In this document: positions 7,548 to 38,751 of the stretch, piece by piece
Layout: every line of letters starts with the position of its first letter
How positions within the stretch are numbered: the stretch's first letter is position 1
NCBI RefSeq assembly: GCF_037860755.1
Contig: NZ_JBBEOI010000008.1
Location: 1-48,088 of the forward strand
Reading direction: 5' to 3'
Source of the DNA: Aquipuribacter hungaricus
Lineage (GTDB): Bacteria; Actinomycetota; Actinomycetes; Actinomycetales; JBBAYJ01
Length of the DNA stretch: 48,088 bases
Notes under the pieces: model-generated
Database searches by the model: none
The model's input: the letters and a program-made list of their open reading frames with translations, nothing else
Told to the model about the DNA's origin: nothing
Position numbers and translations under genes: made by a program

Positions 7548-7554
7548 TCGGGCA

Positions 7555-8982: not shown

Positions 8983-8995
8983 TAGAGTGTGAAGC
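8983..8995 (+). promoter_or_regulatory. candidate leaderless promoter -10 of the PIN gene
   Basis: TAGAGT at 8983-8988 fits TANNNT and ends seven bases before the ATG at 8996, the same geometry as at 6473. There is no Shine-Dalgarno sequence before the ATG. Confidence 0.4.
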
Positions 8996-15209: not shown

Positions 15210-15724
15210 CACAATCACACAAGCCGGGCCCTCTGCCCAGGCGCTCAGCCTGGAGCCCCGTACCCCCCGACAATGCAAGAGGTGTGTGGCAGATGATCTT
15301 TCGCCCTCGAACCAGGGGGGAACGAAGGGACCGTGCCGGCGTCCCGAGCCTGCGGCGGGGCTAGGCGACCGGGGGCTAGGGGAGCGGGGGCTAGGGGAGC
15401 GGGGGCTAGGGGAGCGCTGCGTATGGCTCGGAGCGGGATGCCAGCTCGGGCTGCGACGGGACGCAGCCGGGCCGGAGGGCCGCAGCCGGCACCAGGAGCG
15501 CCTGCTGCTGATCGACGCGACACCTGGTTACAGGCGACGCACCCTGAAGCCTCGCGGCGCGTCCCCTGCCCGCAACAGCCTCACAGGACTGTCGGCGACT
15601 AAGCTGGGTCGGTGGCCCGGTCGGATGTGGGGCAGGCGGCCTGTGTCCCTCAAGGCCGCCACCCTGCCTCCTTCTCGTCGCCTTGCCAAGGAGCGCGACG
15701 TTGAGCGAGGCAAGAAGGAGAAGA
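15210..15724. other. divergent control region between relaxase and methyltransferase (candidate oriT)
   Basis: This ~515-bp gap lies upstream of both the leftward relaxase and the rightward methyltransferase operon, so it must hold promoters for both. It contains a 3x15-bp tandem repeat (15371-15415). Transfer origins commonly lie beside the relaxase gene and often carry iterated relaxase-binding sites, which makes this the best oriT candidate in the element. I did not find a clear nic consensus. No gene is apparent. Confidence 0.4.
15371..15415. repeat. three perfect tandem copies of a 15-bp unit
   Basis: Unit GGGGGCTAGGGGAGC at 15371-15385, 15386-15400 and 15401-15415, with a degenerate half-copy just before (about 15357-15370, GGGGCTAGGCGACC). 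CTAG is rare in GC-rich DNA, so three exact copies are unlikely to be chance. It may be a set of protein-binding iterons. Confidence 0.85.
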
Positions 15725-17068: not shown

Positions 17069-19335
17069 GGGACCGACGCGAGATGAGGTACGAGAGCGCG
17101 CGGACGAAGGCCGAGGTCGTCGCCCGGATGTACTTCCTGGGCAACCGCGTCGCGGAGCCGCTTGGCCCGGGCAGCAAGGAGAAGAAGTCGGCACTCGTTG
17201 CCCTTGGGCGCCATCTTCAGATGGACCTCGAGCCCGTCGCAGGCAAGCACGAGTGCGCGCGCCTCATCGCAAGCGCGTTGGGCGTGCCATGGGACGACAC
17301 GTGCATCTCCGCTGGTGACACGATCACTCTGACAGGGCTGAACCGACTGGTCGACGGAGCCGTCATGGCACACATCACGGCCGGCACCAGCCCTGTACGT
17401 TCGCTGATACGGGAACTGGCCGGCGTGAACCCGGCACCGCGCTGGGACGAACGGGAGGCCGACAACGTGGCAGCAGATTTCAGCGAGATCGAGCAGAACA
17501 TTGCTGAGGCCCTCGCCGAGCTCGCCTCAGGCGGTGCGACACCGCTGAAGGTCGACGTCGCATGGTCTGATCCGTCTTCCGGCACGGACATCTCGCTCGA
17601 GGACGGAAGCTGGCGGACGCCACTCGCGGCCGTACAGGGCTGGCTGGCGCTTCCTGCGTCGATCGACGCGACGGACTCACAGTCGTTCGACCGTTCCCTC
17701 GGTCAACTTCTCGGAGTCAGTGGCTCGACCGTCGCCCCGGGGCCTGAGCTCTTCGAGCGGCTTCAGCAAAGGCTGGAGCGGGCGGTCGCGATCAGGCAGT
17801 CGTTTCACGAGGCGCTCGAGTCCGATTCGGACAGCTCAGCCACGCTCGAGTCAGCGTCCATCTCGTGGGAAGCCGCGTGGGGAGAGGTCGAGGAGGTAGA
17901 GGAGGCCGAGGCGAGCGGCCCGATCAAGGCGGAGGCGTCGACGTGGCCGATCGCGCAGTTCCGACAGTACGCCATGGACGGCGAGATGGACCTCAACCCT
18001 TCCTACCAGCGGGCAGACGTCTGGCAGACGGCGGATGCCCAGATCTTGATCGAGTCCGTGTTGCGAGGCATCCCCCTCCCGTCGGTGATCCTGCTACAGC
18101 GCAACACAGAGGACGGGGACCGCTACGAGATTGTCGACGGCAAGCAGCGGCTCACCTCGTTGCTCCGCTTCACGGGCGCGCACCCCAGGGCCCTTGCCAC
18201 AGTCCGAGCCAAAGCAGCGGAGTGGGGCGAGACCCCGGATGAAATGCTCGGCCTCTTCACCACCGACTACCCCCGGTTCAAGAAGATATGGCGCAAGCAC
18301 GAGGCGACGAACCTCAGCGCCAAAAAAGAGAAGGAACTCTACTTCCCGTTTGCACTGCGGTCGACGAACGCCCCCGCACTCAGCGGGGATCTCGATCAGC
18401 TCCGCGGGCGCTACTACTCCGAGATCAGGTCCCTTGCGATCCAAGTGGGAAACGCGAAGAAGAAGATTCGAGCCCTCTTCGAGGAAGTGTCCGACTACCG
18501 GATCCCGGTAATCGTCTACTTCGAAGCCACAAGCCGTCAGATCCACGAGGTGTTCAGTCTCTACAACAAGCAGGGCAAGCACCTGAACGCAGAGGAGATC
18601 CGGAACGCCGCGTTCCACGAGCTCGACTTCATGCGAGCATTGCTCGCGATTGCCGGCGACGCCGACGGGTTTGATCGGGTCGCCCCGTTCCTGGCGCCCG
18701 TGTGGAACGACGTGAGTTCGACGGGCGTGGCACTGGCCGACCCCACTGGCCCCTATGCCTTGCCCGACGCGGGCTACAAGCGGACGAAGGCGCTGTCTTG
18801 GGTCGCCGCTGCGCTCCTGATGGAGGATGAGAGCGCGTCCACCCGCTCCACCACAGCGCACATCAACGACCTCCTGAAGCGGATCGAGACGCACGCTGAC
18901 GACCCCCTCCGGAGCCAGCAGGCGGTCACGGAGGCGATGAGTTGGCTCGGCGCGGCCATGGATGCGCACCAGGCAGCACCCATGCAGATCTGGGGATCGA
19001 AGTTCCGGGGAACTCAGCCCCGGTGGCAGGAGCTCCAGCTGGTTGCGTCCCTGGTGGCGCTCGCCGCAGCCAGCACGCTGCTCGGCAACGATCTCTCCGA
19101 TCGCATCGACGAGCGCGCTGACGAGCTCCGGGCTGCGTCCGATCGGTGGGCTCGTCCGAAGAAGTCCCAGTCGAGGGAGCAGTGGCAGTTCATCGGTGGG
19201 GTCGTGCGAGAGTTTCTTGACGTGCTCGGGGTGAGCGCTGAGGCAGCCGACGGCGAGATCCGCTCCCGATACGGGACCTCCGGGCTCCGCGAGCTGGTCT
19301 CTCTCCCCCAGCTCACGGAGTGGTCTGACCAATGA
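17065..19335 (+). CDS. DUF262 fusion protein of the Z1 restriction operon
   Basis: 756 aa from a GTG at 17065 that overlaps the methyltransferase stop by four bases; an ATG at 17083 is an alternative. Residues 1-110 are a compact helical domain that I do not recognise. Residues 110-290 include an acidic linker (GEVEEVEEAEAS). DUF262 begins at about 293: PSYQRADVWQ, then ILIESVLRGIPLPSVIL, then IVDGKQRLTSLL (about 355-366). YNKQGKHLNAEEIRNAAFHE near 510-530 is also characteristic. There is no C-terminal DUF1524 HNH. DUF262 proteins are NTP-dependent regulators or motors of restriction systems. In known Z1 restriction operons this position is commonly filled by a MORC/MutL-like HATPase, and I see no HATPase motif here. 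It ends in an ATGA overlap with the Z1 gene, indicating translational coupling. Confidence 0.88.
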   Translation: MRDRREMRYESARTKAEVVARMYFLGNRVAEPLGPGSKEKKSALVALGRHLQMDLEPVAGKHECARLIASALGVPWDDTCISAGDTITLTGLNRLVDGAVMAHITAGTSPVRSLIRELAGVNPAPRWDEREADNVAADFSEIEQNIAEALAELASGGATPLKVDVAWSDPSSGTDISLEDGSWRTPLAAVQGWLALPASIDATDSQSFDRSLGQLLGVSGSTVAPGPELFERLQQRLERAVAIRQSFHEALESDSDSSATLESASISWEAAWGEVEEVEEAEASGPIKAEASTWPIAQFRQYAMDGEMDLNPSYQRADVWQTADAQILIESVLRGIPLPSVILLQRNTEDGDRYEIVDGKQRLTSLLRFTGAHPRALATVRAKAAEWGETPDEMLGLFTTDYPRFKKIWRKHEATNLSAKKEKELYFPFALRSTNAPALSGDLDQLRGRYYSEIRSLAIQVGNAKKKIRALFEEVSDYRIPVIVYFEATSRQIHEVFSLYNKQGKHLNAEEIRNAAFHELDFMRALLAIAGDADGFDRVAPFLAPVWNDVSSTGVALADPTGPYALPDAGYKRTKALSWVAAALLMEDESASTRSTTAHINDLLKRIETHADDPLRSQQAVTEAMSWLGAAMDAHQAAPMQIWGSKFRGTQPRWQELQLVASLVALAAASTLLGNDLSDRIDERADELRAASDRWARPKKSQSREQWQFIGGVVREFLDVLGVSAEAADGEIRSRYGTSGLRELVSLPQLTEWSDQ

Positions 19336-22133
19336 CCCTCGGCGGGCACGAGGTAATTCGCCTCGCCTCGTCGACGACCGGATGGCTCGCCGACTACGAG
19401 CGGGCGCTCACCTCGACCGCTCTGGTCGAGACAAGTCGGCAGGTCGTGCTCGAAGACTCACAGTTCATCGCTGACCGCGCAGCGCTCGACGTGGATGATG
19501 CTCGCTGGGGTTCATCGCGCGTTCGCACCGGGGTCGTCATGGGTGCCGTCCAATCGGGCAAGACCGCATCGATGATCGGAGTGGTCGCGCGAAGCCTCGA
19601 CAACGGCGTAAATGTCGTGGTGGTCCTCGCGGGGACCCAGGTGTCGTTGTGGCAGCAGAGCATGGGCAGGATCCAGTCGCAGCTCGATGGGGGCGTCAAG
19701 CCCTTGCTTCGCCGCGTCTTCCTGCCGAACCCCGACGACATGACCTCCTCACGTCGAGCGGGCCCGGCGGCGGCCTACGGCCTCCCCGCGGGCCAAGCCA
19801 GTCGGGCGCTCGAGCGGGGACGGCCGATCATCTTCGTTGCCATGAAGCAGGTCGATCACCTCCTGCATCTCGGGCAGGTACTTCACAAGGTCGTCTTCCC
19901 AGCGGCAGCGTCTGTAGGTGTTCCGGTGCGGCTGCTCGTCGTCGACGACGAGGCGGATGACTCCTCGATCGCGGACGACGGGCTTCAATGGGGAGCCCTC
20001 GACCTCGACGCGTACAAGCAGACCCCCCGCCGGATCGTCGACCTGTGGGAGAGCAGGAGTCAGCCCGGCCAGACCGTGTCGGAGCATGTCTTCGCGACGT
20101 ACCTCGCCTACACGGCGACCCCGCAGGCCAACTTTCTCCAGGATCCGGAGAACCCGCTGTCGCCGCGAGACTTCGTCGGGTCCCTCCGGACTCCGGGGCC
20201 GAGCGGCGCCGTCACACCCCGCACCCTCACCTACCGAGTTCCTGAAGGCCTTCGAGGGTGGTACACGGGTGCGGACACCTTCTACGGAGAGCTCGCCCCG
20301 GAACTATGCGTTGCGAGTGGTGCCGCCAAGATGGGCGACGAGGCCACGGCCAACAGTGCCGACGCCGAGAACGCCGACTCGGCCTCCGGGGAGCTCGACA
20401 TCGCGGAGATTGTCGACGCGACCCGCGCGTACCTCGTTGCCGCTGCGATCAGGGTGAGCAGGGCTTCGGGGTGTCTGGGACCGACGTCGGCCCGAGCGAG
20501 CACGTTCGCCTCCCCGGGAGACGTCGAGCGCCGCATCACCCCCATCTGCTCGATGCTGATCCACCCGTCGTCCGCGATGGAGTCGCACTTCGAAGTTGCC
20601 GACGCGCTCCAGGGCTGGTGGAACCTTGGGACGGGGCAGCACGGCGACGGGGTCCTCGCCGACATGGCCGACAACGAGCAGGAGTGGGTCGCATGGGTGG
20701 AGCGGTACCGAAACTCCAGCAAGGCAGTCTCCGCCGCTCACCACATCCCGGGGGGCTTTGCCGACGACCGTCATGTGCCGGAATGGGACGCGTTGCGCCA
20801 GCTGATCGTGGACGAGGTCGTGCCGGGCACAACGATCGCGGTCGTCAACAGCGACCCGAACGCAGACGATCGTCCGTCGTACCTTCCGTGGTGCGACGCG
20901 GACGGCTGGCACCCACCTCGCAACCATTCGACGATCTTCGTGTCAGGCAACGTGATGTCCCGAGGACTCACCCTGGAGGGGCTGCTGACCACGCTCTTCA
21001 CGCGCAGATCGTCGGCACCGTTGGCGGACACACAGATGCAGATGCAGCGGTGGTTCGGCTACCGCGGCGCCTACATCGACCTGTGCCGCGTCTTCCTCTC
21101 TCCTGAGCAACTCATGCTGTTCGCGCGCTACGCGGATGCCGACCATGCCCTCAGGTCACAGGTCCTAGCCGCCATGGAGTCGTCGGAGTCACTCCCCGAC
21201 TTCACGGTGCTCCAGGGCCACGCGTTCCAGGCCACCGGCAAGGTAACCGGCCTCGTGGGGCGACAGTTGCGGCCCGGATCACGCCCTTTCGTTCGGCACC
21301 TCAATCCGCCAGGTCAGGACACCACCAACCTCGCAGTCGTGAGCAGACACTTCGCGACCGCCCATCGGTCCGGCCGCTTGAAGACGGATCCGCGAGGACT
21401 TCTCGCCCTCGACGATCTGTCGCTCATCGAGTGCGCGGCCCTTCTCGACCAGATGCGCTACAGCGACCACGGACTCGTACCACTCGAGTCGGATCGGTGG
21501 CGCGCCCTCGAGCGGCAGGCGGCACTCCAAGAGGGCGACCCCGAGTACCCGCTCTATCGTGCCCCACCCGTTGGCGATCAGGGTCTCGACCTGGGAAGCC
21601 GCTCCCCCTTCGTCATCGCGGCGTACCTGCGGTTCTGGGCAGCGTGCCTGGACCGAGACGTCCGCGGGGTGTTCACCGACGATTCCCCTCCCCAACGCTG
21701 GTCGCTCTTGAACCGCGACGCAAAACGCCTGAGCCAACCGCGGTTCCGTGTCGCGGTGCGGTTCGGTGCGGGTCTACCGGTGTCGGCTGGTCCGTTCGTC
21801 GACCTCAGCAAGTCGATCGGACTCGACATCCGGGCCATGGCGCGCGACACGACGGAGGAGGGTCTCGCCGCCCTGTGGGGTTCCCGCGAGGCGACCGCAA
21901 CGGGCTATGTCGGTGACGACCTCTTTGACGCCTCCCTACTAGGTGAGGCCCCGCCCCTGCACGCCGATGGCACGAGAACGGAGGGGGCCCCTGGGCTTGT
22001 CCTCTTCCACCTCATTGAGCGCTCTGACGCCGGAGGAATCGCGATCGGACTCAGCATCCCGAGTGGTGGCCCCGACCATGTGGAAGCCGTGAGCACGCTC
22101 CGTCGGAGGGGGACGAAGACCCGTGCCGAGTGA
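19332..22133 (+). CDS. Z1-domain SF2-type ATPase/helicase
   Basis: 933 aa, ATG overlapping the previous stop (ATGA). Walker A is GAVQSGKTASM (residues 71-81), Walker B is LLVVDDEADDSS (about 201-212). The Z1 core has FVSGNVMSRGLTLEGLLTTL (about 535-555) and the motif VI-like QMQRWFGYRGAYIDLCR (about 569-586). Z1 proteins are a helicase group found next to cytosine methyltransferases and PD-(D/E)XK nucleases in restriction operons, where they are thought to translocate on or remodel DNA for cleavage. Length is typical for the family. The last 11 bases overlap the start of the DUF4420 gene. Confidence 0.93.
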   Translation: MTLGGHEVIRLASSTTGWLADYERALTSTALVETSRQVVLEDSQFIADRAALDVDDARWGSSRVRTGVVMGAVQSGKTASMIGVVARSLDNGVNVVVVLAGTQVSLWQQSMGRIQSQLDGGVKPLLRRVFLPNPDDMTSSRRAGPAAAYGLPAGQASRALERGRPIIFVAMKQVDHLLHLGQVLHKVVFPAAASVGVPVRLLVVDDEADDSSIADDGLQWGALDLDAYKQTPRRIVDLWESRSQPGQTVSEHVFATYLAYTATPQANFLQDPENPLSPRDFVGSLRTPGPSGAVTPRTLTYRVPEGLRGWYTGADTFYGELAPELCVASGAAKMGDEATANSADAENADSASGELDIAEIVDATRAYLVAAAIRVSRASGCLGPTSARASTFASPGDVERRITPICSMLIHPSSAMESHFEVADALQGWWNLGTGQHGDGVLADMADNEQEWVAWVERYRNSSKAVSAAHHIPGGFADDRHVPEWDALRQLIVDEVVPGTTIAVVNSDPNADDRPSYLPWCDADGWHPPRNHSTIFVSGNVMSRGLTLEGLLTTLFTRRSSAPLADTQMQMQRWFGYRGAYIDLCRVFLSPEQLMLFARYADADHALRSQVLAAMESSESLPDFTVLQGHAFQATGKVTGLVGRQLRPGSRPFVRHLNPPGQDTTNLAVVSRHFATAHRSGRLKTDPRGLLALDDLSLIECAALLDQMRYSDHGLVPLESDRWRALERQAALQEGDPEYPLYRAPPVGDQGLDLGSRSPFVIAAYLRFWAACLDRDVRGVFTDDSPPQRWSLLNRDAKRLSQPRFRVAVRFGAGLPVSAGPFVDLSKSIGLDIRAMARDTTEEGLAALWGSREATATGYVGDDLFDASLLGEAPPLHADGTRTEGAPGLVLFHLIERSDAGGIAIGLSIPSGGPDHVEAVSTLRRRGTKTRAE

Positions 22134-23178
22134 CAGCACTACCTTCGAGACGTTGCGGCACGCCCTCAAGTCGGCCTTGCCAGCCCCATCTGCCCAGGAG
22201 CGGCGCATCCAGTGGGTAGGGGGCGGGCACCGGATTGGCTTCGCCCGGGACAGCAAGGGTCGGCTGGAGGTGTTCCTCCTGGGGGCTCCCCTTGATGCTC
22301 GAGAACCCTCCGTGCGGGAGCGTCTCGTGCATGACACGTGGAACACCGTGGGGGGCGAGCAACTCGCCGCCACCCGCTTCCGGCTGCCCGACGATGACCA
22401 CCACGACGCGATCGCGGCCACAATCCTCCTTGAGCTCCTCGACAAGGGGTATGAGCACGACAGGGACGAGGCCTTCCGGCTCACGGAACCGCTGATCGCG
22501 TTGGCGTTGGATTCAGCGCGCACTGAGAACGCTGCGCTCACTGGACTCGCAGGCGAGCTCCTGACACTCGCCTCGATGGTCCGGCTGCACCCCGCCTCGG
22601 CCCAGGACTTCCTCGACGCCTGGCAAGGCTGGCGCAGGTCTAGCCGAGACTTCCAGCTCGGCTCTACAGGGATCGAGGTGAAGACGACCACGACCAGCGC
22701 CAGCCGTCACCACATCCAAGGGTGGTACCAGGTGGAGTGCGGGGTGGCCGCCGACGGGACCGTCGAGACAGACCTGCACCTGCTCTCGATCGGCATCCGA
22801 TGGCTCCCGATGGACAGTCCGGGTGCGTCGATCGAGTCGCTCGTGAAGGAGGTTTCCAGCGCGTTGCCCGCACCGCGCCGACCGGGCTTCATCGGGGCCG
22901 TGCGGGGGTACGGCGGGGTGGGCTTCGCAATCGACGAGGACGGCACAGCCGGTCAGGTGTCACTTCGACGGCCGTTCATCTCCACCTACGAACGCCTGTA
23001 CGACCTCCGGGACGATCGGATTCGATTGCCGACCGCAGCCGACTTCGCCCGCTTTACCGACCTCGTGTCCGATACCGTGAGTTTCGAGATCGAACTGCAC
23101 GAGCGGGTACGGGGTGACCGGAACCCAGTCGTGGGCCTTGGTGCGGCTCTCTCGGCCCTCCTAGCGCGGCCTGGATAG
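22123..23178 (+). CDS. DUF4420 PD-(D/E)XK-motif putative restriction nuclease
   Basis: 351 aa from a GTG at 22123, overlapping the Z1 gene by 11 bases. The PD-(D/E)XK core is visible as SSRDFQLGSTGIEVKTTTT (residues about 173-191), where Glu and Lys of IEVK are the expected metal-binding and catalytic residues. DUF4420 (PD-(D/E)XK motif) proteins are the likely endonuclease of Z1-methyltransferase restriction operons. Being last in an overlapping operon led by the methyltransferase fits production of the nuclease after the protecting enzyme. No AIPR-type gene follows, although some related operons have one. Confidence 0.9.
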   Translation: MPSDSTTFETLRHALKSALPAPSAQERRIQWVGGGHRIGFARDSKGRLEVFLLGAPLDAREPSVRERLVHDTWNTVGGEQLAATRFRLPDDDHHDAIAATILLELLDKGYEHDRDEAFRLTEPLIALALDSARTENAALTGLAGELLTLASMVRLHPASAQDFLDAWQGWRRSSRDFQLGSTGIEVKTTTTSASRHHIQGWYQVECGVAADGTVETDLHLLSIGIRWLPMDSPGASIESLVKEVSSALPAPRRPGFIGAVRGYGGVGFAIDEDGTAGQVSLRRPFISTYERLYDLRDDRIRLPTAADFARFTDLVSDTVSFEIELHERVRGDRNPVVGLGAALSALLARPG

Positions 23179-23565
23179 CTCGAAGTCAAATGCGATCACT
23201 GACCAGACCTGGCAGTGGTTGCAAGTGATGCAAAGTCGGGTGTCCGGGGAGGGGACCTCATCACCGGACACAGCGTGCCACCGTGCCCCGGCTCGTCGAT
23301 GGGTGCTATCTGCCGCCATATGTGCAGCCCGTCGTGGGACACCAAGTTCGAAATCCCGCCCCGGCGCGAGTCAACACACTCCGGGGGCGTCATTTCCGCG
23401 TCGCTTTGCGGGTGACCGGGGAACGACCGACGCGCGGTTGACGCTGCGTTCGCCCGCCACAAGCTCGCCTGTTTTATCGACGCTGCTGGTGGCCCTGATG
23501 GGCCAGACGGCGGGCTTGGGCGGGGTCTGCTGACGGTGGACCTGCATTGATGCTAAGCATGGCGG
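23179..23565. other. ~390-bp gap between the Z1 operon and the HNH gene
   Basis: No gene is apparent. The frames are short, run on both strands and have no family features. The gap separates the Z1 operon from the SRA-like/HNH gene, which therefore probably has its own promoter. Confidence 0.4.
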
Positions 23566-24524
23566 ATGACTGTGCCAGTGCATCTGCCGGAGAACCACCG
23601 TGTCCGCCTGGACTGGTTCGCCAGCCGTGCGGGTCAGACGACCTACTTCCCGGAGCAGCTGCCCGACGGGTCGTTTTTGGTCAGTCGGCCGAAGGGTATT
23701 TTCAAGCCGCAAGGCTTCGAGCACGCAGTGAGCGTCCGTATCAACCTACACAGCCCCTACAAGGACGGAAGGTTCGGAGCCGCTCGGACGGCAGCTGGTA
23801 TTTTGACTATCATCAGGAGAACCCAGACCCGGACCAGCGCGACACCGCGTACACCAACCGGGCACTTGTCGCCTGCATGAAAGATTCCGTGCCTGTGGGT
23901 GTTCTTCGCGAGCGAAGTGTCTCGAAAGGCAGACGTCCCGAGTACGACGTCCTCGGTCTGGCGGTGCCGGTTGACTGGAGAGATGGTTACTTCTTCTTCG
24001 AGAGCGTGACCGGATCCGCCGGGCCGCGGGGGGACACCGCCGGGCAGGTGCTGACGGCGTCCGCTGAGGACGAGTTCTCCGCCCAGCTGATCGAAACGTC
24101 CCCACCCGAGGACGACTACGACGCCCGTCGTCGCGTATACCGGCAGATCGTGGCCCGGCGCGGCCAGGTGAGTTTTCGGCGGGAACTGCTCGATGCTTAT
24201 CAAGCGCGATGCGCGATCACGGGCTCATCTACGACGATGGTCTTGGAGGCAGCCCACCTTCGACCCTATCGAGGTCCCCGCTCGAACTCGGTCTCGAACG
24301 GTCTACTCTTGAGGAGCGATCTGCACACGCTTCTCGACCTTCAATTGCTTGCTTTTGACCCGACGTCAAGAAGGGTGCTCTTGTCGAGGGTTCTGTCCGG
24401 TGGGGACTACGCAGACCTGGCGGGCCGTGCCATGCGAGAGCCGACCAAGCCCCACCAGCGACCAGCCGACGACGTGCTGGCAGCGGTGCATGCGGCATTC
24501 CAGCACGCGGAGGGGCGACGCTAG
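23566..24524 (+). pseudogene. SRA/YDG-like + HNH endonuclease (type IV-like), frameshifted
   Basis: The N-terminus reads from the ATG at 23566 (MTVPVHLPENHRVRLDWFAS) to SPYKDG at about 23766. The rest reads in another frame as KVRSRSDGSWYFDYHQENPD to the stop at 24524. One missing A at GGAAGG (about 23768-23775) would restore a 319-aa protein. Residues about 10-145 resemble an SRA/YDG domain, which flips and reads modified cytosine: DTAYTNRALVACM, VPVGVLRE and PEYDVLGLAVPVDW match the spacing of YDG proteins. The HNH nuclease follows: CAITG (about 215), LEAAHLRPY, SNGLLLRSDLHTLLD. This layout is that of McrA-like type IV enzymes that cut DNA carrying modified cytosine. As read, the protein is split and probably inactive, unless the indel is a sequencing error. 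Confidence 0.75.
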
Positions 24525-24728: not shown

Positions 24729-27700
24729 GTGTCGGCGGCCACCGCAAGAGTCCTTTCGCTGTTCCAAGTTGACGACAGAGAGGTGGAGGCTGTGATGCGC
24801 GGGGACTATCGGCGTTGGAACGCTGCTGTTGCGGACGTCCTGTACCCCGAGCTGACGGAGACGAGCCCCGCATACCTCGACATCGAGAGCGACGCGCTGG
24901 GCAAGATGGCAGCCGACGTCGGCTGTCCTCCCGAGCGAGCCCGGGAGGCGCTCGTCGAAGCGGTTCGTGAAGCGGCCATTCCCGACGGCCGCTGCGATCT
25001 CCGAGGGCTCGCACGCGAGCTCGCTCGTTGGCGCCGTGACGACCGGCTCGGCCCCCCACCGGTGCTGGGCTTCCTCGCCGTGACCGTCATGGCCGCTGAA
25101 GAGATGGGCCGCAGCGACGGGGACCTCCCTTCCCATGCCTACTACGCCCGGCTTGCACGGATCTTCGGGCTGCCGGACGCGGACGAGGGTCTAAAGACCC
25201 ACTACAGGAGTTATGCGGAGGAGTTCTGGTCAGCCGTCAACGGGTGGCTAGAACGACTGGACGGTCGACGCGGCCTACCGACCGCCTACGCCCTGAGCCA
25301 TCGGTACGTCAGTCTTCCGATCTCTCAGGCGCTGGTGAACCGCGGGGACAGGGCCCGCCTGCCGCTCGTCTTCGACGACTTGGGTCTCGCCGCCGGGATG
25401 CAGTTGTCGACCTCTGACATCGAGCGCCACCTCGAGCAGTACCTCGCCTCTTCGCACCCGAGTCTGTCGGCGGCGTTCCGCCGGCTCTGGGCGAGGCCGG
25501 CCAGCAAGGAGCGGCTTGCGTCACTCGTGTCGGTAGAGCTGGCGCACTGGGATGGCACGCTTCCCGGGACCTCCGAAATCAGGGCCCAGGGTCGTCGTGC
25601 CGTTCTCGTAGTCGACGTCCGGCGACACTTTCGTGGCACCTCCGTCGACATCGGTATGGCCATGAGGACCGCCAGCGACTTCGACGGCAAGGCCACGGCC
25701 CTGGCGGAGGACGCCTCCTGGGTGCCAGTGACCCTGGTCCCCGCGACGGCCGGGCTCTGGCGGACGATGTCCGGTGCTGGCATCGACGTCGCTTCGTTGC
25801 TGGACTCGATCGTCCGCCTCCGGGCTGACGGGGAGGTCGAGTTCATCCACCGCCCACGGAGCATCGTCCCTCTCGTGTATGACGAGCTCCAAGCCTCGTT
25901 CGTCGAGCAGGAGCGGGCGCAGCTGGCCGCTGACTCCGTGCTGCTCGTTCGCACCGAGGGTGGCAGTCGCGTGCTGGACAGGGTCCGACGCGTGCTCGAC
26001 AGCTGTGCACGCCCAGGGTGGGACGTCGTCGAGGGCACGGGCGTCCCGTCTGGCTGGGTCCTGGTCGAGGGTGTCCAGCTGTTCGCGACACCAGCCGATG
26101 GAGCGCCGCAGGAGCTGGTGCCGATGTCCAGCACCCAGCTCACGCTCGCGGGCGGCGTCAGGATTCCTTCCCGGGTGCGGAAGTGGGTCGTCTCGGCTCC
26201 GCCAGAGGCCAGGGCGGTGGCCGAGGACGCGGGTGAGCTGCACGTCGTGCTTCGAGAACGGGACTCGCAGGCCGAGGTCCACCGCTGGGCCGGCGAAGGG
26301 GGGGTCCTGGTCGCTCCCCTCGGGGAGGCCGGGCTTGAGCAAGGCGACTTCGATCTAGAGCTTTACACAGCGCGCAAGAGTGCCCCTGTCCAGAGGGTGT
26401 CGGTGCGGCTTCGATCGGCAGACGAGCCAGACGCGAGCTTCGAGGACGTGGCGACGCTCGTCTACAGCACCGGTTCGACAGCGGCGGGCGCGTTGTCCGC
26501 GACGCCGTTCGACGAGGAGTCGGACACCGTTTACGTCGACGGGTCGGTGGCTGCTGGGGCCATCGATCTAGGTCTCGAGCCCCTGGTAGCACCGCGGGGC
26601 GCGCCATGGACGGCCCGTGAGAGCGCGGTGCTTGCGCGCCCGGTCGTGCGGCTCGGGTCCGTCGACCCCACGTCGTGCGTCGTCACCGGAGCACACCGGT
26701 TCGAGCTCCCTCCCTTTCACGGTGGCCGGGCGCAGCGCTACGTGGAGGGCGAGTGCTCCTCCTGCGGGCTCGTGAAGCGGTGGCCCGGATGGCTGCGTCG
26801 GGGCCAGGCTCACCAAGCGCCCGCTCGTCTTGCCGAAGGGGTCAGCGTGGCCGACCTGCCACCGGCGAGCATCGACAGGGTCTACGACTGGCCGGCGGCC
26901 CTCGGGGCGTTGGGCCACCTCGGGGGAGGCGGCATCCGGCAGCTCGAGGCGGTCGCCACCCAGCTGGAGGGCACTCCTCTGTTCGTCGGGCAGTTCATCC
27001 GGGCCATCGAGGCGCTGGGGCATGTCGACATCCAGCGCGACAGCCGGCTCGTGCCCGTCAGCTGGGCGGTGGCGGCGACCGCGGTGGCCGAGGACTCGAC
27101 TGGTCGGTGGCACCTCACTGGTTATTGGCCGGACATCCTCGTCCACGAGGTCGGTGTGGCGGCGGCAGCGACCGGGGGGTTGCTGATCTTCCTAGAGCGG
27201 GGTGAGGACCCCGGCGGGTGGGTGCTCACCGGCCTGTCCGAGAAGGCGCTGAGGCAGGTTCTACCGGAGGACGTGAGCGTTGTGCCCGACGCCGGTACGG
27301 CGGTTGCCAACACGCTCCCCCCGCTGAGCCAGGTAGCGGCCGCTCTGGACAAGATTCCGATGCCGGGGTACGACGAGGCGTTCCGGTTCGACGTCCCGGC
27401 GGCCTCTTGGGTGCTGGTGCACGACACGAGCGGTCCGGGTGCCTACCGGTTGCGGCGCGGCTACGAGACGGTCGACGTGTTCCGCGACGAGGCAGATGCG
27501 CGGGCGGGGACGGCCAGCAGGGTGGACGTCTACCTGGCCAAGCACCTCGCCGCCAACCTGGAGGGCACCGTCCTCTTCGCGCACCTACGTGAGGCGGAGC
27601 AGCTCGTTCTCCCGCGCGGGTGCCATCTCCCCGGGCTTTATGGCCGCTCGGTCGCACTCGCGTCTGGCGCGCTGGGTGTCGAGTCCCGCTTGAGCAGCGG

Positions 27701-27779
27701 CAACCGCCGCTACTGCCACCGGTACGCCGACGTGCCCGCCGGGCTCGCCGACCGCCTCGCGACCGTCATGAGCAACTAG
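24729..27779 (+). CDS. 1,016-aa protein of unknown function, first gene of the DUF1998-helicase operon
   Basis: Starts at a GTG at 24729 preceded by a G-rich AAGGGGGG stretch; a later ATG at residue 23 is possible. The first ~280 residues are helical and charged. The middle (about 280-600) mixes strands and helices. Near residue 640-690 there is a possible metal-binding patch (SCVVTG, then [15 protein letters not shown]). I see no nuclease, ATPase or membrane motif and do not recognise the family. It ends seven bases before the helicase gene, so the two are co-transcribed and probably act together. In Druantia type III, a large protein (DruH) is paired with a DUF1998 helicase (DruE); this gene holds the same position, but I cannot show homology to DruH by eye. 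Confidence 0.8.
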
Positions 27780-27786
27780 GAGACCC

Positions 27787-30700
27787 ATGGACCAGCCGCT
27801 GACACCGATGGGCCTCGCGCAGGACCTGCGTGACGCCTACCTCCGGTACTTCGACACGGCGTTCTGGCTCGCAGACGAGTCGTTGATGCGCGAGCGTCGT
27901 GATCTGCTGGAGGCCCCCGGGGCGCTGGTAGGCGAGACGATGATCGAGCCGGTGGTGCCCTACCCCGGGACGGAAGACTTCTCACAGGCCTTGGACCTGG
28001 TCGGTGCAAGCCGCCGGACCGGTGCAGCCGTGGCCAAGGCGTTGTTCCCGTGGGAAGAGCGGCTCGAGCACCTCAAGCTCCGTTATCACCAGGCGGTCGC
28101 GCTACGAGGCAGCCTGAAGGACGGTGCCGCTGATGGCCGCAACGTCGTGATCACCTCTGGAACGGGCTCCGGGAAGACGGAGTCGTTCCTGCTCCCGATC
28201 TTGCTGCGGCTCGCTGAAGAGGCGACCACCTGGACTTCTCAGCCATCCCAGGACGAGTGGTGGGCCTCGTCCGATCCTCAGTGGCGGCCAGCGCGGCACG
28301 GGGAGACGAGGCCGCCGGCAATGAGAGCCATGGTCCTGTACCCGACCAACGCCCTGGTCGAGGACCAGATGACCCGCCTGCGCCGGGCGGTGGGCGTGCT
28401 CCGCACAGAGCTCGGGCAGCCGCTGTGGTTCGGCCGGTACACGAGCGGAACGATGGGCACGGGAGCGACTCCCTCACGGGCCGCGGCCCGCGAGGTCGGG
28501 GCTGACATCCGAGCACTCGCCGCCGAACGCGTGAGCCTTGAAGCAGCACGCTCGGAGAGCATCGACCTGAGCCAGTTCGTCGACCCCCGCGGCGGTGAGG
28601 TGCTGACCCGCTGGGACATGATCGCCCACGCACCGGACGTGCTGGTCACCAACTACTCGATGCTCAACACCGTCATGATGCGTGGGTTCGAGGCGCCCAT
28701 GTTCGAGCAGACTCGCAGGTACCTGGCGGACGACCCGGCCCGAACGTTCACCCTCGTCGTCGATGAGCTCCACCTCTACCGGGGCACGCAGGGGAGCGAG
28801 GTGGCGATGATCGTCCGCTCGTTGCTGCGCCGGTTGGGCCTTGCTCCCGACTCGCCCCAGATCCGGGTCATGGCTACCTCCGCCTCGCTAGAGGCCGACA
28901 CGAAGGGCCTCGCCTACCTCGAGCAGTTCTTCGGTCTGCCGCGGGAGTCATTCGTCGTCGAACCTGGCAGGCCGCGGCCGCTGCCCGAGCGGCCGTCGCT
29001 GGACCGGGAAGCGGTCCGGAACGGGACTGCGTCCCCCGCGACCGTGTCCGCCGCCGTAGCCGCAGCCTGCTCCGACGCCGGTCGACTCCGCGCCACCAGC
29101 CCTGCTGCGTTGGCCGCCCGGCTCTTCGGTGATGAGGATGACGGCGCCGAGCTGTTCGCTCACGCCCTGCGGATCCTCGCGGCTGCCGGGAGCGAGGACA
29201 CGGCTGAGCTCGTCCCCCTGCGCGGACATGTCTTCGTCAGGAGTCCGCGGGGGCTGTGGGCCTGCTCGAACCCTCATTGTTCCGGGGCACCCGCCGACAG
29301 GTCTGCGGCCGTGGGGCGCTTGTTCTCCGCGCCGACCTCCTCGTGCTCGGACTGCGGCTCGCGCGTGCTGGAGCTGCTCTACTGCTACGAGTGCGGTGAC
29401 GCCAGCCTCGGTGGCTTCGTGCTGGGCCCGGTGGGCGATGACCTGCTTATCGGACCGGGGCCGGTGGACGAGAAGCAGGCGGGCAAGCAGGTCTTCCAGC
29501 GTTCCAGCACGGAGTACGTCTGGTACCGGCCTGGGCTGCTCCCTACCGGCGAGACCTGGACGAGGGAGGGCGTGACCCTCGCTTTCGCACCCGTGACCTT
29601 CGACCCGGTTCTGGGACACGTCCAGCGTGGCGGGGCGGCCGCAACCGGCCTGGCGCTCGTGCACTCCGGTGCCACTGAGGGCGACCGCATCCCGTCGCTG
29701 CCGACCCGCTGCCCCGCCTGCCGGTTCGACTCACCGGCACAGAGCCGCAACGGTGCCAAGTTCCGCGACGGGCAGGTGCGCTCGCCGATCCGGGCTCACA
29801 CCTCCGGCCTTGGAGCGACAACACAACTGTTCCTCTCCCAGCTGGTCCGGTCGTTGGCCGCAGGCAAGGCAGGCCGTGCCGCTGTCGAGGACAGCCGTAC
29901 GATCGTTTTCACCGACAGCCGTGACGACGCCGCCCGCACCGCCGCGGGCGTGGCGCTGAACCACCACCGCGACGTCGTCCGGCAGCTGCTCAGGCGCTCG
30001 GTCCTGGACCAGGACGACCCGCTAAAGGGGCTCGACACGATGGACGTGCTCGAGGCCGCGTCCAAGGGGCTGGTGGAAGCGTTCATCGCGCGGCAGAAGC
30101 AGCGCGGCGGGCTGGCGTTGGACGCCTCGGACGAGGCGGCTCTCAGTGCTGCTGGGGAGCTGCTGGGCCTAGACCCGGCCGTGCCCTTGTCGGGTGTCAT
30201 CGACCGGGTGGCAGAGGAGCTGGTCGCGCTGGGCATGAACCCGGCCGGCCCGAACCCGTACGAGCAGTACCTCGAGGCCGAGAGGGCCACACCTTGGTTC
30301 CGGGCGTTCGCTCCACCGCGGCCAGGGCTGTGGGAGACGCCCCCCATCCACACGGGGCGGGAGCGACTGCTCAGCAGCCTTCGCCAGGCGGTGACTGACG
30401 CCGTCTTCGACCGCGCTCGGCGTGACCTCGAATCGGTGGGCATCGCTTACGCGGTTGCGAAGGGGTGGCGGCCTGTCGAGGGGCCGATGTCACCCGAAGA
30501 GCAGGAGCAACTGCTCGGATCGGTCCTCCGGCTGCTGGGGCTCCGGGGCCGTTGGGAAGGTTCGCGCCGCGGTGGGGTGGAGCCGCAGGCCGCCGTCCCC
30601 GCGTTCGTGCGCCGCTACGTGGAGCGGTCCGTCGGCACAGCCGAGGAGGTGCTGGAGCAACTGGAACGCCTCATGGCCGGGGCGGAGGTCAACCGCGCGG

Positions 30701-33030
30701 TCTCGGGCTGGCTGCTGCGGCCGGCCGCGCTCGACACCACCCTCGCGCTGCAGCCCGCGGGTGGGCGCCGCTGGCGCTGCAGGAACTGCCGGTTCGTGCA
30801 TCTCCAACCCAGCCTCGGGACATGCGTGAACCCGCAGTGCCATGGCAGGGACTTGGAGGCGCTGGACGGCGCGCCCGAGGTCGACTACTACGCGTGGCTC
30901 GCCGGCGAGGAGCCCCGCCGACTCGCAATCGCAGAGCTCACAGGACAGACGAAGCCGCTCGCGTTGCAGCGAGACCGCCAGAGATGGTTCAAGGGAGCAC
31001 TGACCCTGTCCGAGAACGAGCTCACCCACGAGCTTGACGTCCTGTCGGTGACGACGACCATGGAGGTGGGCGTCGACATCGGCACCCTGCGCGCCACCAT
31101 GATGGCGAACATGCCGCCGCAGCGGTTCAACTATCAGCAACGGGTGGGTCGGGCCGGTCGCGCGGGGCAGGCGCTGAGCTTTGCCGTGACGATCTGCAGG
31201 GACCGGACGCACGACGAGTACTACTTCGGCAGGACCAGCCGCATCACGGGGGACGTCCCCCCTCAACCGTTCCTCGACCTTGCCCGTCGGCGGATCGTGC
31301 AGCGGGTGGTCGCCGCGCTGTGCCTTCGCGCCGCTTTCCTTTCCCTGCCGACGGCCGACCGGCCCCGGTGGACCGGGGCGAGCAACCACGGGACCTTCGG
31401 CCAGCTGGTTGACTGGTCGACCGTCGCTCCGGCCGTCCGGGCCTGGCTGGCGCACGACCCGGAGGTCGAGGACATCGTGGTCCGGCTCAGCCATGGGACC
31501 GAGCTCACGGAAGCGGACACCCGCGGCATCACGAGCTGGGTCCGTGAAGAGCTGGTAGACCAGGTCACGGCGGTGGTCAGTTCGGAGCAGGGAACGGTAG
31601 ACACCGAACTGAGCGCGGCACTCGCCCGCAACGGCATCCTGCCGATGTTCGGTTTCCCCACGCGCGTCCGCCAGCTGTGGGACGCCCCGATCCGATCCAA
31701 GCAGTGGCTCGAAGAGAGGGTGGTCGCCGACCGGCCCCTTCACATGGCCGTGTCCTCGTTCGCGCCGGGCGCGCAAGTTGTCAAGGATGGTTTGGTGCAC
31801 GTGGTCGACGGGTTCGTCGCCTATCGGCCCAAAGGCAAGGCCGTCGAGGCGGTCAACCCTCTCGGACCCGGTCATCCTCTCTCGCGCTGTCCGTCGTGCG
31901 GGCGGAGCGAGCTGCGTCAGACCACGTCTTGCCCGGAGTGCCACGCCGAGATGGACTCACTCGTCCTCTATGAGCCGCGCGGGTTCAAGACTGACTACAA
32001 GGCGCGTCCGTTCGACGACGTGGTGGACCTGTCGTCGTCAGCCGGGATGCCGGTGCTGAGCCCACCGACCCGACCGCACGCGACCGTGCAGCTGCCCCAC
32101 GCGGACCTCGCCGTGTTCGAGCAGAGCCGGCTCGTGACGATCAACGACGGCAATGGCCGCGGCTTCGAGATGGTGCCGTCGCAGCATGGTGGGTTGGAGG
32201 CCCGGCCCGGGCGCCCGGGTGCGGCTGAGGTGAGCGTGATCGGAGAGGTCCGAGTCACCGACGCGCTGGTGGTCACCCCAGCGCGCCTCGACCTCCCCAC
32301 AGGCGCTGTCGCGCTGTACGACAGTTCCCAACCGGCTGGTCGAGCCTGCTACACCTCCTTGGCCGAGGTCATTCGCCGGGGAGCGCAGTCCTTGCTGGAC
32401 CTGGACCCGTCAGAGCTCACCGTCGGCCTGTTGCCCAGGCGCGTTCCGGTCATCGGTGCTGCGGAGCCAGACGTGCAGGCCCAGGTCGCGGCCGCGGTGT
32501 TCCTGGCTGACACGGCGGAGAACGGCGCGGGCTACGCGGTGGAGCTCGGTGAGGAAGCAACGTTCCGTAAGCTCATCGAGACCACTTTCGACGATCTCAC
32601 CGAGCGCTGGGAGGGTGATGGTGGGCACTCTGCGAGGTGCGAGGTGTCCTGCCCGGACTGCCTGCGTTCCTACGACAACAGCCGGCAGCACCCGAGCTTG
32701 GACTGGCGTCTGGCCCTCGACATGCTGGAGGTGCTTGGTGGGCGACAACTTTCCCTTGCGCGTTCGCTGCGGGCCGGGGAGCGCGGAGTGGCCGCGGCAG
32801 CCAAGGAGCTTGGCTGCACGTTCGAGGAGGTTCACGGGGTGTGGATGCTCGCTCGCGGACAAAGCGCTGTCCTGCTGTCGCACCCGCTGTGGCGTACCGA
32901 CGAGCGCTACCTCGACGAGGTGCAAGCCGAAGCGCACGTGGTCGCCGAGTCGCGGTACGGCCGGGTGAGTTGGGTGGATGCCAGGTCGTTCCGTCTCAAC
33001 CCGCTCGTGGCATGGCCGTTCCTACAGTGA
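27787..33030 (+). CDS. giant DEAD/DEAH helicase with DUF1998-type C-terminus (DruE-like)
   Basis: 1,747 aa, ATG with AGGAG a few bases upstream. Walker A is [11 protein letters not shown] (residues 124-134). The DEAH-type box is [10 protein letters not shown] (about 323-332) and motif III is MATSASL (about 361). Helicase C motifs are [11 protein letters not shown] and [11 protein letters not shown] (about 1118-1128). Three Cys pairs form a zinc-binding insert at about 492-540 (CSNPHC, CSDCG, CYECG); another pair is CPACRF near 641 and a further knuckle is at about 1368 (CPSCGR, CPEC). The end has the DUF1998 hallmark [18 protein letters not shown] (about 1618-1635). The size and the N-terminal [12 protein letters not shown] segment resemble Druantia DruE and related phage-defence helicases. 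It overlaps the nuclease gene that follows. The helicase call is firm, the defence role inferred from context. Confidence 0.93.
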
Positions 33031-34061
33031 CCATCACGGTTCCCGAGCCTGCGGCTCGACCTCTCGCCAAGATGTCACCGTCGAGGGTGAGCGAGGTCGA
33101 GGCCTGTCCTCGCAAGGTCGGGTACGGCCAGGACCCCGTCTTTCGGGGCCTGCGGAGAGGAACGCCGTCGTCAGCGTTGGGGCAGGTGGTGCATGCCGTC
33201 CTCACCACGGAACCCGGCGACAGCTTTGAGGAGTCGTGGCGGTCGGCTGAAGCGACGGCACTCGATCGCTTGCGGCGGGCTTGGTCGCCCGCCACCCCTC
33301 CCGCCCCACATCGGTGGCCGGGCTGGGCGCTCGCCAGGGCCAGGGCCAGAGCGCGTTGGATGCCGATCACAGCGCGACGCGGGGGTGGTGAGGCTGGTGA
33401 CGTCAGGGTGGGCGCTCCACCCCTGCCCTGGGTTGAGCGACGCCTCGACCACCCCGACCTGCCGCTTTTTGGCCAGCCGGATGTTGTGGAGCAGATCGAC
33501 GGCGAGCTGCTGGTCCGTGACTACAAGACCGGCAAGGTGGATGCAGGGCCCGGAGGCAGCAGCTGGCGGCAGTTGCTCCTGTACTGCGCACTGGTCGAGG
33601 CCGTTCTTGGTCGACTGCCCGACGTCATGGTGATCGACACGCTGGGCGCTCGACATCGCGCTGATGTCCACAGGCCGGCTGTCGACGACACGGTTGCGGC
33701 CGCCCTGGCTCTGCGGGCCTCGTACAACGCGTCAGTTGGGGACGGTCCGGTCGCGGGGGCTCCAGGACCCGAAACTTGTCGCTTTTGCCCTTTCCGCCTT
33801 GTGTGTGAACCGTTCCTGTCCACGGTGCAGGCCGACTGGGGCGTCGGGTTGCCGCTCGTGGGGACGGTCGACGCCGTCGACGAAGCGGTGACCCTTCGAC
33901 TGGAATGGCCAAGCTGGTCTAGAGGTCAGCTTGTGACGCTCATCGGTCTCCCCTTCCCCGACGGTGTCGCGCGCGGGCAGAGATGGGGTGTGCTGGGAGC
34001 TGCACCCCGAGGTGCCGCCGCCGTGGCCGGCTGGAGCAGCGTCGTGCACCGCTGGTCGTGA
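33027..34061 (+). CDS. Cas4/AddB-like PD-(D/E)XK nuclease with predicted iron-sulfur cluster
   Basis: About 344 aa from the GTG at 33027, which overlaps the helicase stop as GTGA; an ATG at 33012 would add five residues. The nuclease core shows GQVVHAVL (His near 57), [11 protein letters not shown] (Asp near 151) and [11 protein letters not shown] (Asp and Lys near 164-166), then a QxxxY-like LLLYCALVE. Four cysteines match the Fe-S pattern of Cas4 and AddB: one N-terminal ([11 protein letters not shown], near 27) and C-x2-C-x5-C at the C-terminal side ([10 protein letters not shown]). Such enzymes are 5'-3' or bidirectional exonucleases working with helicases. Here the partner would be the 1,747-aa helicase, giving a helicase-nuclease machine analogous in parts to AddAB. 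The region after the cluster (about 80 residues) is beta-rich and unassigned. Confidence 0.9.
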
Positions 34062-34345: not shown

Positions 34346-34993
34346 ATGAGTCACCTTGTCGCCTATTACGACGAGAAGCCGGTTGAACTCAAGGGTCAGG
34401 TCGAACTACAGCAGATGCCGATCGTCTCCGCCTCAGCCTTGCGCTCAGCCGAAGGCGTTATCCGAACCTCACTCGTCTACGTTTGTGTGCCTAAAGAGAC
34501 TGGCCCCTTCCTAGTTCCGTTCGGCGAGTTCGACGATTCGTCGCTGCGTGACCGCTACAACGAGGCGATCCGAATCATGAACACACTCGGGGCGTCCTCC
34601 ATCATCTGCGAGACCTTCCGCGAGGTGGTCGCCCGTCGCGGTTTGCGCGCTCGGGTGTTCACGCGTGGCGGCGTTGAGCCGGTCCAGCAGCGGATCGGCA
34701 ACACGGGGTTCGACTTTCGGCACAGCGGTGCAGGAAGCACGCCACGTGATCCGCGGCCACTCCGTTGGCCGAACGAGTCTGGCTTCGCTGCCGCAGTCAG
34801 CAGCGTGCTGGAGAACGGGGCAAGCGAGGTCAGTTTGAACATCAAGAACAACCGGATCTACTCCCTCGAGGGGGAGTTGGGAATGAAACTAAAGAAGATT
34901 GGGTTTGACCTCGGCGCCGGGACTCAGCACTCTGGGGCCACGAGCCTTCACATCCGCGCAGAGTTTCCTGCCGCCCGACGTACGTGGAGATAA
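34346..34993 (+). CDS. hypothetical protein, 215 aa
   Basis: ATG at 34346 (MSHLVAYYDEKPVELKGQ) with GGGAG eight bases upstream. Globular composition with a regular alternation of helices and strands, and no signal peptide or membrane segment. A conserved-looking stretch is FRHSGAGSTPRDPRPLRWPN (about 130-150), and the C-terminal third (SLNIKNNRIYSLEGELGMKL) looks well ordered. I do not recognise the family. It lies 284 bp after the helicase-nuclease operon, so it is probably a separate cargo gene. The intervening 34062-34345 holds no gene that I can support. Confidence 0.65.
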   Translation: MSHLVAYYDEKPVELKGQVELQQMPIVSASALRSAEGVIRTSLVYVCVPKETGPFLVPFGEFDDSSLRDRYNEAIRIMNTLGASSIICETFREVVARRGLRARVFTRGGVEPVQQRIGNTGFDFRHSGAGSTPRDPRPLRWPNESGFAAAVSSVLENGASEVSLNIKNNRIYSLEGELGMKLKKIGFDLGAGTQHSGATSLHIRAEFPAARRTWR

Positions 34994-37152: not shown

Positions 37153-37413
37153 ATGGAGCAGAACATGATCGGGGCGCGGGGCGTGAGCCCGTCGGTGAAG
37201 CGGATTCCGACGGGTCCGACGTCACCGGAGGACCGGCTCTGGACGGTGCACGACGTGTCGGCGTTCCTGGGCGTGCCGGTGTCGACGCTGTACCAGTGGC
37301 GGGTGCAAAGCCGGGGTCCGGCCTGCCGGCGGATGGGTCGGCACCTGCGGTACCGGCCGGAGGACGTGCGGGAGTGGGTTGCGGGGCTGGGTGATGCCCG
37401 GGTGGCCTGGTGA
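37153..37413 (+). CDS. excisionase-like helix-turn-helix protein
   Basis: 86 aa from the ATG at 37153 (MEQNMIGARGVSPSVKR), with GAGGAGGT eight bases upstream fixing this start over an earlier in-frame one. Residues about 32-80 form a MerR/AlpA-type winged HTH: LWTVHDVSAFLGVPVSTLYQ, then a wing with RHLRYRPEDVREWV. Proteins of this kind beside a tyrosine integrase act as excisionase or regulate it. It overlaps the integrase start (GTGA), indicating coupled expression. Confidence 0.85.
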   Translation: MEQNMIGARGVSPSVKRIPTGPTSPEDRLWTVHDVSAFLGVPVSTLYQWRVQSRGPACRRMGRHLRYRPEDVREWVAGLGDARVAW

Positions 37414-38587
37414 GCGCCCGGAGGCTCACGATTGGGGAGCACGGCACCATCGGCTTCCGGGAGCGTCCCGGGGGTGGCTTCACGGCCGCGACGTACTACC
37501 GGGACCTCCGCGGGCTGCGCCGTCGCCTCGAGGCGTCCGCACCCTCGAAGTCGGTGGCCCGGCGTCGGCTGCTGGCGCGGTTCGAGGAGACGATGCGCCT
37601 CGGTGGCTCGGCCGGTTTCGACCCGCGCACGACGCTCAAGGACGTGGCCGAGGAGTGGCACGCGGGCATCGTCGAGCGGGTCGATGCGGGACGCCGGTCG
37701 CCGACGACGGCAGCGCTCTACCGGCACGCGTTGAACCGGCACCTGCTGCCCGAGCTGGGGGCGCTGCGGCTGTCGGAGCTGACGACCGCCCGGCTGGACT
37801 ACTGGTTGCACGACGTCCGTCGCCGGAAGGGCCACTCGACGGCGAAGCTGTGCCGGTCGGTGCTGTCCGGCGTCTGCGGGTACGCCGCGCGCCGAGACGC
37901 GATGCGGGTCAACCCGGTCCGAGACGTGTCACCGCTGGAGAGCGACCTCGGCGAGCCGGCGCGGGCGCTGACGAAGGCCGAGGCGGTGGAGTGGCTGGCG
38001 CTGTTGGAGGGCGACGAGTACGCGCGTCGGATGGACTTACCGGACTTCGTGCGCTTCCTGCTCGGGACGGGGCTGCGGATCGGGGAGGCGGTCGGGGCCC
38101 GCTGGGACGACGTCGACCTCGACCGAGGGACGTTGTCGGTGCAGCGGACTATCGTCCGGGTGGCCGGCGCAGGGCTCGTCGCGCGCAAGCCCAAGAGCCG
38201 CGCCGGGGTGAGGGTGCTCGGTCTTCCCGGTTGGCTCGTCGACCTGCTCCGTGAGCGGCAGGTGTCGGCCCGCTCCGTCGAGGAGCCGCTGTTCCCGGAC
38301 GCGTTGGGTGGCTACCGGGACCGGAACAACGTCGAGGCCGCATTCCGCGCGGTGCGGTCCGGGACGGCGTTCGAGTGGGTGGTGCCGCACACGTACCGCA
38401 AGACGGTCGCGACGTGGATGGACGCGGAGGCCTGAGCGCGCGGACGATCGCGGACCAGCTGGGGCACTCGCGCATCTCGATGACGCAGGACGTCTACATG
38501 GGCCGGCGCGCCGTCGACGCGTCTGCGGCGAGGGTGCTCCAGGCGGTCGAGCTACCTCCTCGGATCGCTGCGAAGGAGTCGGCGTGA
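37410..38587 (+). pseudogene. tyrosine recombinase (integrase) frameshifted before its catalytic Tyr
   Basis: GTG at 37410. The N-terminal arm-type domain (GTIGFRERPGGGFTAATYY) is followed by a core-binding SAM-like domain (about 70-160) and the catalytic domain. Catalytic residues visible in the first frame are Arg in TGLRIGEAVGARW, Lys in ARKPKSRAG and His-x-x-Arg in PHTYRK. That frame ends at a TGA at 38433-38435. The rest, LSARTIADQLGHSRISMTQD and then VYMGRR with the nucleophile Tyr, lies in another frame to 38587. Adding one C at GCCTGAGC (about 38429-38432) would restore a 392-aa protein of normal length. As read, the protein lacks its His/Trp-box and Tyr and cannot recombine. The gene points at the tRNA attachment site 90 bp further on. 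Confidence 0.9.
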
Positions 38588-38675: not shown

Positions 38676-38751
38676 TGGTGGGCCCCGTGGGGCTCGAACC
38701 CACAACCCGCGGATTAAAAGTCCGCTGCTCTACCGATTGAGCTAGAGGCCC
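38676..38751 (-). tRNA. tRNA-Lys(UUU)
   Basis: Minus strand. The 5' acceptor GGGCCTC at 38751 pairs with GGGGCCC, followed by discriminator A and an encoded CCA (38676-38678). The D-arm contains AGCTCAATCGGTAGAGC. The anticodon stem GCGGA/TCCGC closes the loop CTTTTAA with anticodon TTT. The T-arm is GTGGGTTCGAGCCCCAC. 73 nt plus CCA. It is the intact integration target of the element, whose insertion regenerated the 3' half. Confidence 0.97.
38677..38713. repeat. right attachment site (37-bp direct repeat within tRNA-Lys)
   Basis: Perfect copy of 5726-5762, located in the 3' half of the intact tRNA-Lys gene. Identity ends inside the anticodon stem-loop, the usual crossover zone for integrases that use tRNA genes. 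Confidence 0.9.

Follow-up and report, generated by a model that had tools for sequence, protein, structure and literature searches.

A Druantia variant between published types II and IV: the druF(L)-druE-druK operon of Aquipuribacter hungaricus

Gene content and mobile element context

The window, by which we mean the whole stretch of 48,088 nucleotides analysed here (Aquipuribacter hungaricus, contig NZ_JBBEOI010000008.1), carries a three-gene operon, whose coordinates we verified on the sequence, and the features of a putative mobile element:

5726-5762 (left) and 38677-38713 (right), no strand: two exact 37-bp copies of the tRNA-Lys 3' end, which likely served as attachment sites and bound a ~33-kb element
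11811-15278, minus strand: TrwC relaxase, within the ~33-kb element
15683-17068, plus strand: druM, C5-cytosine methyltransferase (PADLOC DruM2, 657 bits; PF00145)
17065-19335, plus strand: DUF262/GmrSD_N protein, accessory cassette (PF03235)
19332-22133, plus strand: Z1-domain protein, accessory cassette (PF10593)
22123-23178, plus strand: DUF4420 protein, a putative PD-(D/E)XK protein, accessory cassette (PF14390)
23547-24524, plus strand: HNH endonuclease (PF13391)
24729-27779, plus strand: druF-druL fusion, 1,016 aa, GTG start (PADLOC DruF2)
27787-33030, plus strand: druE, YprA-family SF2 helicase, 1,747 aa (PADLOC DruE2; Pfam; solved homologue 9wae)
33027-34061, plus strand: druK, PD-(D/E)XK nuclease, 344 aa (PADLOC DruK; PDDEXK_1)
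37410-38435, plus strand: tyrosine integrase (Pfam Phage_integrase), beside the tRNA at the element's right end

The layout of the trio was as the initial annotation had described it: 7 bases (27780-27786) separate druF from druE, and druK starts at GTG 33027, within a GTGA overlap with the druE stop. A longer druK reading frame from 32637 was rejected as a mechanical over-extension within druE. Upstream, druM and the DUF262, Z1 and DUF4420 genes overlap one another and are followed by the HNH gene and, after ~200 bp, by druF, which places druM 7.7 kb from the trio. An HNH endonuclease also adjoins the system in G062, a same-order genome; the homologue in locus L034, 42% identical, lies beside DruK and DruM. 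Downstream of druK, a co-directional frame of 215 aa (34346-34993) has no family match.

When the 18 window proteins were scanned against PADLOC-DB, the trio scored 1,120 bits with DruF2, 1,656 bits with DruE2 (residues 5-1745, a DruE-type YprA-family helicase as found in Druantia of any type) and 299 bits with DruK. Three family scores of this strength mean that the match of the operon is not a chance one, and druF(L)-druE-druK almost certainly belongs to the Druantia family. Two earlier claims thus had to be given up. The 1,016-aa protein, which had been called unrecognised, is covered end to end by the DruF2 model (residues 26-1015); it has no match in Pfam or NCBIfam, which explains its unknown look. 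Nor is the system undescribed: PADLOC has a named family for each of the three proteins.

The flanking repeats, the integrase, the TrwC relaxase and the absence of the DruE helicase from both congeners compared indicate that the druF-E-K island is probably cargo of a ~33-kb integrated mobilisable element at tRNA-Lys. An empty integration site was sought in the two congeners, and their flanks were too diverged to align. More likely defence cargo lies at 6486-10087, namely a GmrSD_N gene (PADLOC NsnA, 211 bits), a weak-HEPN protein and a PIN_12-domain protein.

A DruF-DruL fusion, a helicase and a separate nuclease

The evidence throughout is comparative. The sample comprised the best 80 of 449 DruE-relative loci (one-genome-per-species contigs), 4 whole-genome loci and the window, and was searched with profiles grown from the window proteins. 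Gene calls were mechanical open reading frames, and position was the sole criterion for calling a gene "directly downstream". Because these are the best 80 of 449, the frequencies below describe the neighbourhood of this DruE, not all Druantia.

Within the DruF protein, the PADLOC DruL4 model matched residues 752-1012, and the DruL-like part occupies approximately residues 715-1016, the last ~300 residues. In this sample, 80 loci had the N-terminal part of DruF together with DruE, and 79 had the C-terminal part; the two parts formed one reading frame in 39 loci and separate frames in 41. The free-standing C-terminal partners are PADLOC DruL and fall in the same profile group as the fused domain. 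By these sequence matches, DruF and DruL are naturally fused in the 1,016-aa protein. Gene order was nearly constant as well, with DruF upstream of DruE in 79 of the 80 sampled loci having both; in the exception, L117, both DruF parts lie downstream of DruE on the opposite strand.

The AlphaFold model of DruF (pLDDT 90) consists of a helical N-terminal region, two beta-sandwich regions and the DruL-like C-terminal domain, which modelled alone reached pLDDT 95. The second beta-sandwich (residues 467-564) is Ig/FN3-like (VIA-align Z up to 8.9, rmsd 2.9 over 86 residues), and the DruL-like domain may open with a winged helix, a weak resemblance in the model (VIA-align Z about 5-6.5); neither likeness is informative about the function of DruF. 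A candidate zinc knuckle (C650, H656, C676, C679) is invariant in 16 relatives. Searches of the PDB by sequence and with Foldseek (under E 0.001) returned no known fold. In type III, the likely sensor DruH contains Ig-like domains and evolves faster than its DruE (PMC13192584), and by analogy DruF may be a sensor too: median identity among relatives was 0.38 for DruF and 0.49 for DruE. However, the median for DruK is lower still (0.30), and rapid divergence by itself is thus no mark of a sensor.

DruE is the DUF1998-type helicase that had been proposed. Pfam finds DEAD and Helicase_C domains and, just over the cut-off (24.8 vs. 24.2 bits), MZB/DUF1998, and the protein carries a Walker A motif (GTGSGKT, 125-131), DELH at 326-329, a further motif at 1118-1125 and the DUF1998/MZB zinc module. 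Some 120 aa remain past the last DUF1998 cysteine; this tail has a conserved HPLW motif, and across the relatives it showed no conserved acidic pair or catalytic site. Independently, Bell et al. predicted that the Vsr nuclease domain which DruE carries in types I and II is inactive (PMC12458937). Given a C-terminal domain of this kind, cleavage is probably supplied in trans by DruK. A solved helicase of 1,970 aa (PDB 9wae and six further entries) matches the DruE profile over its whole length (938 bits) and offers a structural template.

The assignment of the third protein as a Cas4/AddB-like PD-(D/E)XK nuclease also held. DruK matches PDDEXK_1 (2e-17), with a likely active site of H56, D152 and D165-x-K167 and with cysteines at C27 and at C251-x2-C254-x5-C260, the pattern of an N-terminal Cys plus C-x2-C-x5-C that is shared with Cas4 and AddB. 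At each of these catalytic and cysteine sites the residue was kept in 30 of 31 aligned relatives, the remainder being gaps, and DruK probably carries an Fe-S cluster, to judge from these residues. It is not itself a Cas4 (NCBIfam cas4, 28.3 bits vs. a cut-off of 65), and its partner is an SF2 YprA helicase rather than AddA or Cas1. A search by sequence found no solved relative of DruK.

Inherited and exchanged genes around DruE

Pairwise divergences, taken without correction for shared phylogeny and with the methyltransferase as the contrast, correlated with those of DruE at r = 0.91 (31 loci) and 0.93 (clade of 18) for DruK and at r = 0.97 (clade) for DruF, in contrast to r = 0.20 (p = 0.054, clade) for DruM. 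DruE, DruF and DruK are co-inherited. DruM is associated with the system and exchangeable, and the M cassette moves independently of the core.

The comparison of loci illustrates this. In Cellulomonas terrae (L116), the cassette is 77-85% identical to that of the window, yet DruE is only 43% identical. A DUF262 gene lies beside DruF-E-K in L044, L045, L046, L050 and L116; the Z1 gene recurs in L046, L050, L116 and G436, and the DUF4420 gene in L050, G436 and G548. G436 has DUF262-Z1-DUF4420 directly downstream of a distant F-E pair that lacks K, and G548 has M-DUF262-Z1-DUF4420 with no F or E within the 36 kb read. Thus, the METHYLTRANSFERASE module moves by itself.

As an observation in its own right, DruM-DUF262-Z1-DUF4420 (15683-23178) behaves as a mobile restriction-modification-like cassette. 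Among 394 other genomes of the class, only two had a Z1 gene of the window type; in one of them it adjoins a distant Druantia F-E pair, and in the other it stands alone. Known Z1/DUF4420/Dcm modules, such as MZA and an island of Corynebacterium diphtheriae BH8 (PMC5379612), likewise cluster a Z1 helicase-like protein, DUF4420 and a Dcm-like methylase; the cassette differs from them in including DUF262, in standing beside Druantia and in scoring far under the cut-off for MzaC and MzaD.

Could all these genes nevertheless form one larger unit? DruM, DUF262, Z1, DUF4420, HNH, DruF, DruE and DruK would then be parts of a single restriction-modification super-system: DruM would mark self at a specific site, the other proteins would restrict unmethylated DNA, and DruF-E-K would be one effector arm. 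All of the genes are co-directional and several overlap, the DUF262-Z1 cassette stands beside DruF-E in the six loci L044, L045, L046, L050, L116 and G436, and C5 methyltransferases occurred near DruE in 50 of 85 loci (the best 80 of 449 plus 5), whereas 18 of 60 sampled actinobacterial genomes had any; DruM is the only C5 methyltransferase that a genome search found in A. hungaricus. A review names methylation as the specificity determinant of Druantia and states that Druad1 evades type I by promoting phage methylation (PMC12904381). Against this stand the divergence of DruM, which does not track that of DruE in the clade, the mismatch between cassette and DruE in L116, the free-standing cassette of G548, and a gene order and strand of DruM that vary among loci. 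We therefore regard the larger unit as unlikely, although it fares best among the alternatives.

The bond between DruK and DruE is closer. In 12 of the 14 nearest loci, DruK is the gene immediately 3' of DruE, and the initial annotation, which would have been refuted by a nuclease not kept beside the helicase in other genomes, was not refuted on this count. The same placement is seen in 18 of 24 loci of the wider actinobacterial clade and in 29 of 71 loci with enough downstream sequence in the best-80-of-449 sample. The two genes usually overlap, in fused and in split systems and in several phyla. DruE and DruK may form a physical complex, of which co-inheritance is no proof. DruK is not always required: two Nocardia loci (L043 and L070) among the nearest 14 lack it, with no replacement and no remnants where these were looked for, L049 has a frame-disrupted copy, and no obvious gene stands directly 3' of druE in 18 of 71 loci in the best-80-of-449 sample.

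Such losses from complete F-E loci, the resemblance to Cas4 and to the AddB nuclease domain, and the other potential nucleases next door would suit a lesser role for DruK, that of an accessory exonuclease or end-processor that clears or resects cut DNA while DruE-DruF themselves, or else the HNH or DUF4420 proteins, inflict the damage. We find this distinctly improbable, because the divergence of DruK follows that of DruE as closely as the divergence of DruF does, because the druK and druE reading frames mostly overlap, and because DruK is commoner than the HNH and DUF4420 genes.

Other genes occupy the position 3' of druE in other lineages. In a proteobacterial sister clade, DruE is followed by a protein of ~650 aa with an invariant D57 and E99-x-K101 before a UvrD-type ATPase, and loci with this protein have no DruK. 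The PD-(D/E)XK-like/UvrD protein is found at L059:15406-17370, with relatives in L057, L060, L061, L062, L063, L065, L067 and L069. Streptomyces L082 and its relatives have a PtuA-like ATPase after DruE, in L082 with an HNH protein beside it, and single loci have McrBC (L056), a PLD-helicase (L064), HNH (L054) or a UvrD-type protein (L110). Nuclease and ATPase genes of this kind abound in defence islands, so for the single cases an exchange of function is only a hypothesis.

Type assignment and a proposed mechanism

Published Druantia type II consists of M, F, G and E, and type IV of E, F and L (PMC8565338). The locus described here contains M, F-L, E and K. DruM2, DruF2 and DruE2 are its best-matching families, as in type II, but DruG has no match among the 18 window proteins scanned, a DruL-like domain sits on DruF, DruK is added, and four other genes lie between DruM and DruF. 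In the genome as a whole, the DruG model PDLC00024 gave 0 matches, a search that was also silent in every control genome. The DruF, DruL and DruE parts of type IV are likewise all present, DruL as the C-terminal domain of DruF, and DruK recurs in split systems too. In contrast to type IV, however, which supposes neither DruM nor DruG, DruF and DruL share one gene, DruM2 is present (15683-17068), and DruE is nearer to DruE2 (1,656 bits) than to DruE4 (1,290 bits). Thus, druF(L)-druE-druK is a variant between published types II and IV: its parts were already named, and as a set they match neither type, so that a match to a named system with an identical gene set, which would have refuted the initial annotation, is only half there. 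Since free DruL partners match the C-terminal end of long DruF2 models, the two types are not cleanly separate here.

One of the readings in the initial annotation took the trio for a relative of Druantia type III with an added Fe-S exonuclease, of which the Druantia part stands (PADLOC) and the type does not: a YprA-family DruE is shared, and DruF resembles DruH in being large, Ig-like and faster to diverge than its DruE, but no DruH model matched any scanned protein, the best type III DruE model reached 363 bits against 1,656 for DruE2, and the nuclease is a gene of its own, with no Pfam match at the DruE C-terminus to the PLD nuclease domains of type III DruE (PMC13192584), so that this reading is scarcely credible. 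For DISARM, DrmA matched on the helicase core only (42 bits), and no DrmB or DrmC match was found. Scores for membership of type III Druantia, DISARM, Dpd and Cas4 were all far under the DruE2, DruF2 and DruK matches, and these assignments were rejected.

For types II and IV of Druantia, we came across no published mechanism. From the domains and neighbourhoods described above, we infer that DruF senses, that DruK cleaves DNA opened by DruE and that DruM marks self. DruF-DruL, with its zinc knuckle, Ig-like domain and possible winged helix, would recognise the invader and/or load DruE. DruE would unwind phage DNA or track along it, and its likeliest substrates would be replication intermediates bearing 3' single strands, in line with type III DruE, a helicase that prefers 3' single-stranded tails (PMC13192584). 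DruK, RecB/Cas4-like and with a probable Fe-S cluster, would then cut where the degenerate C-terminal nuclease domain of DruE cannot. DruM and DUF262-Z1-DUF4420 would form a modification/restriction module open to exchange, by which self may be told from non-self. Taken as a whole, we consider this mechanism reasonably probable.

A broader and more tentative reading, which we put at rather less than even, is that Druantia II/IV is one modular machine. It would have an invariant DruF(L)-DruE core with a dead nuclease, a "nuclease socket" 3' of druE that accepts DruK, NERD-UvrD, McrBC, PLD-helicase or HNH modules, and, for recognising self, a methylation/Z1 module that is exchanged independently. 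The division into types II and IV would then merely reflect whether genes have fused or split and which module is docked.

That the long "type II" DruF amounts to DruF plus DruL would unite the two published types. The separate movement of DruM bears on whether methylation guides Druantia. Finally, if DruE in this branch acts as a helicase whose nuclease domain is dead, with DruK doing the cutting, the system would be testable by a few point mutations.
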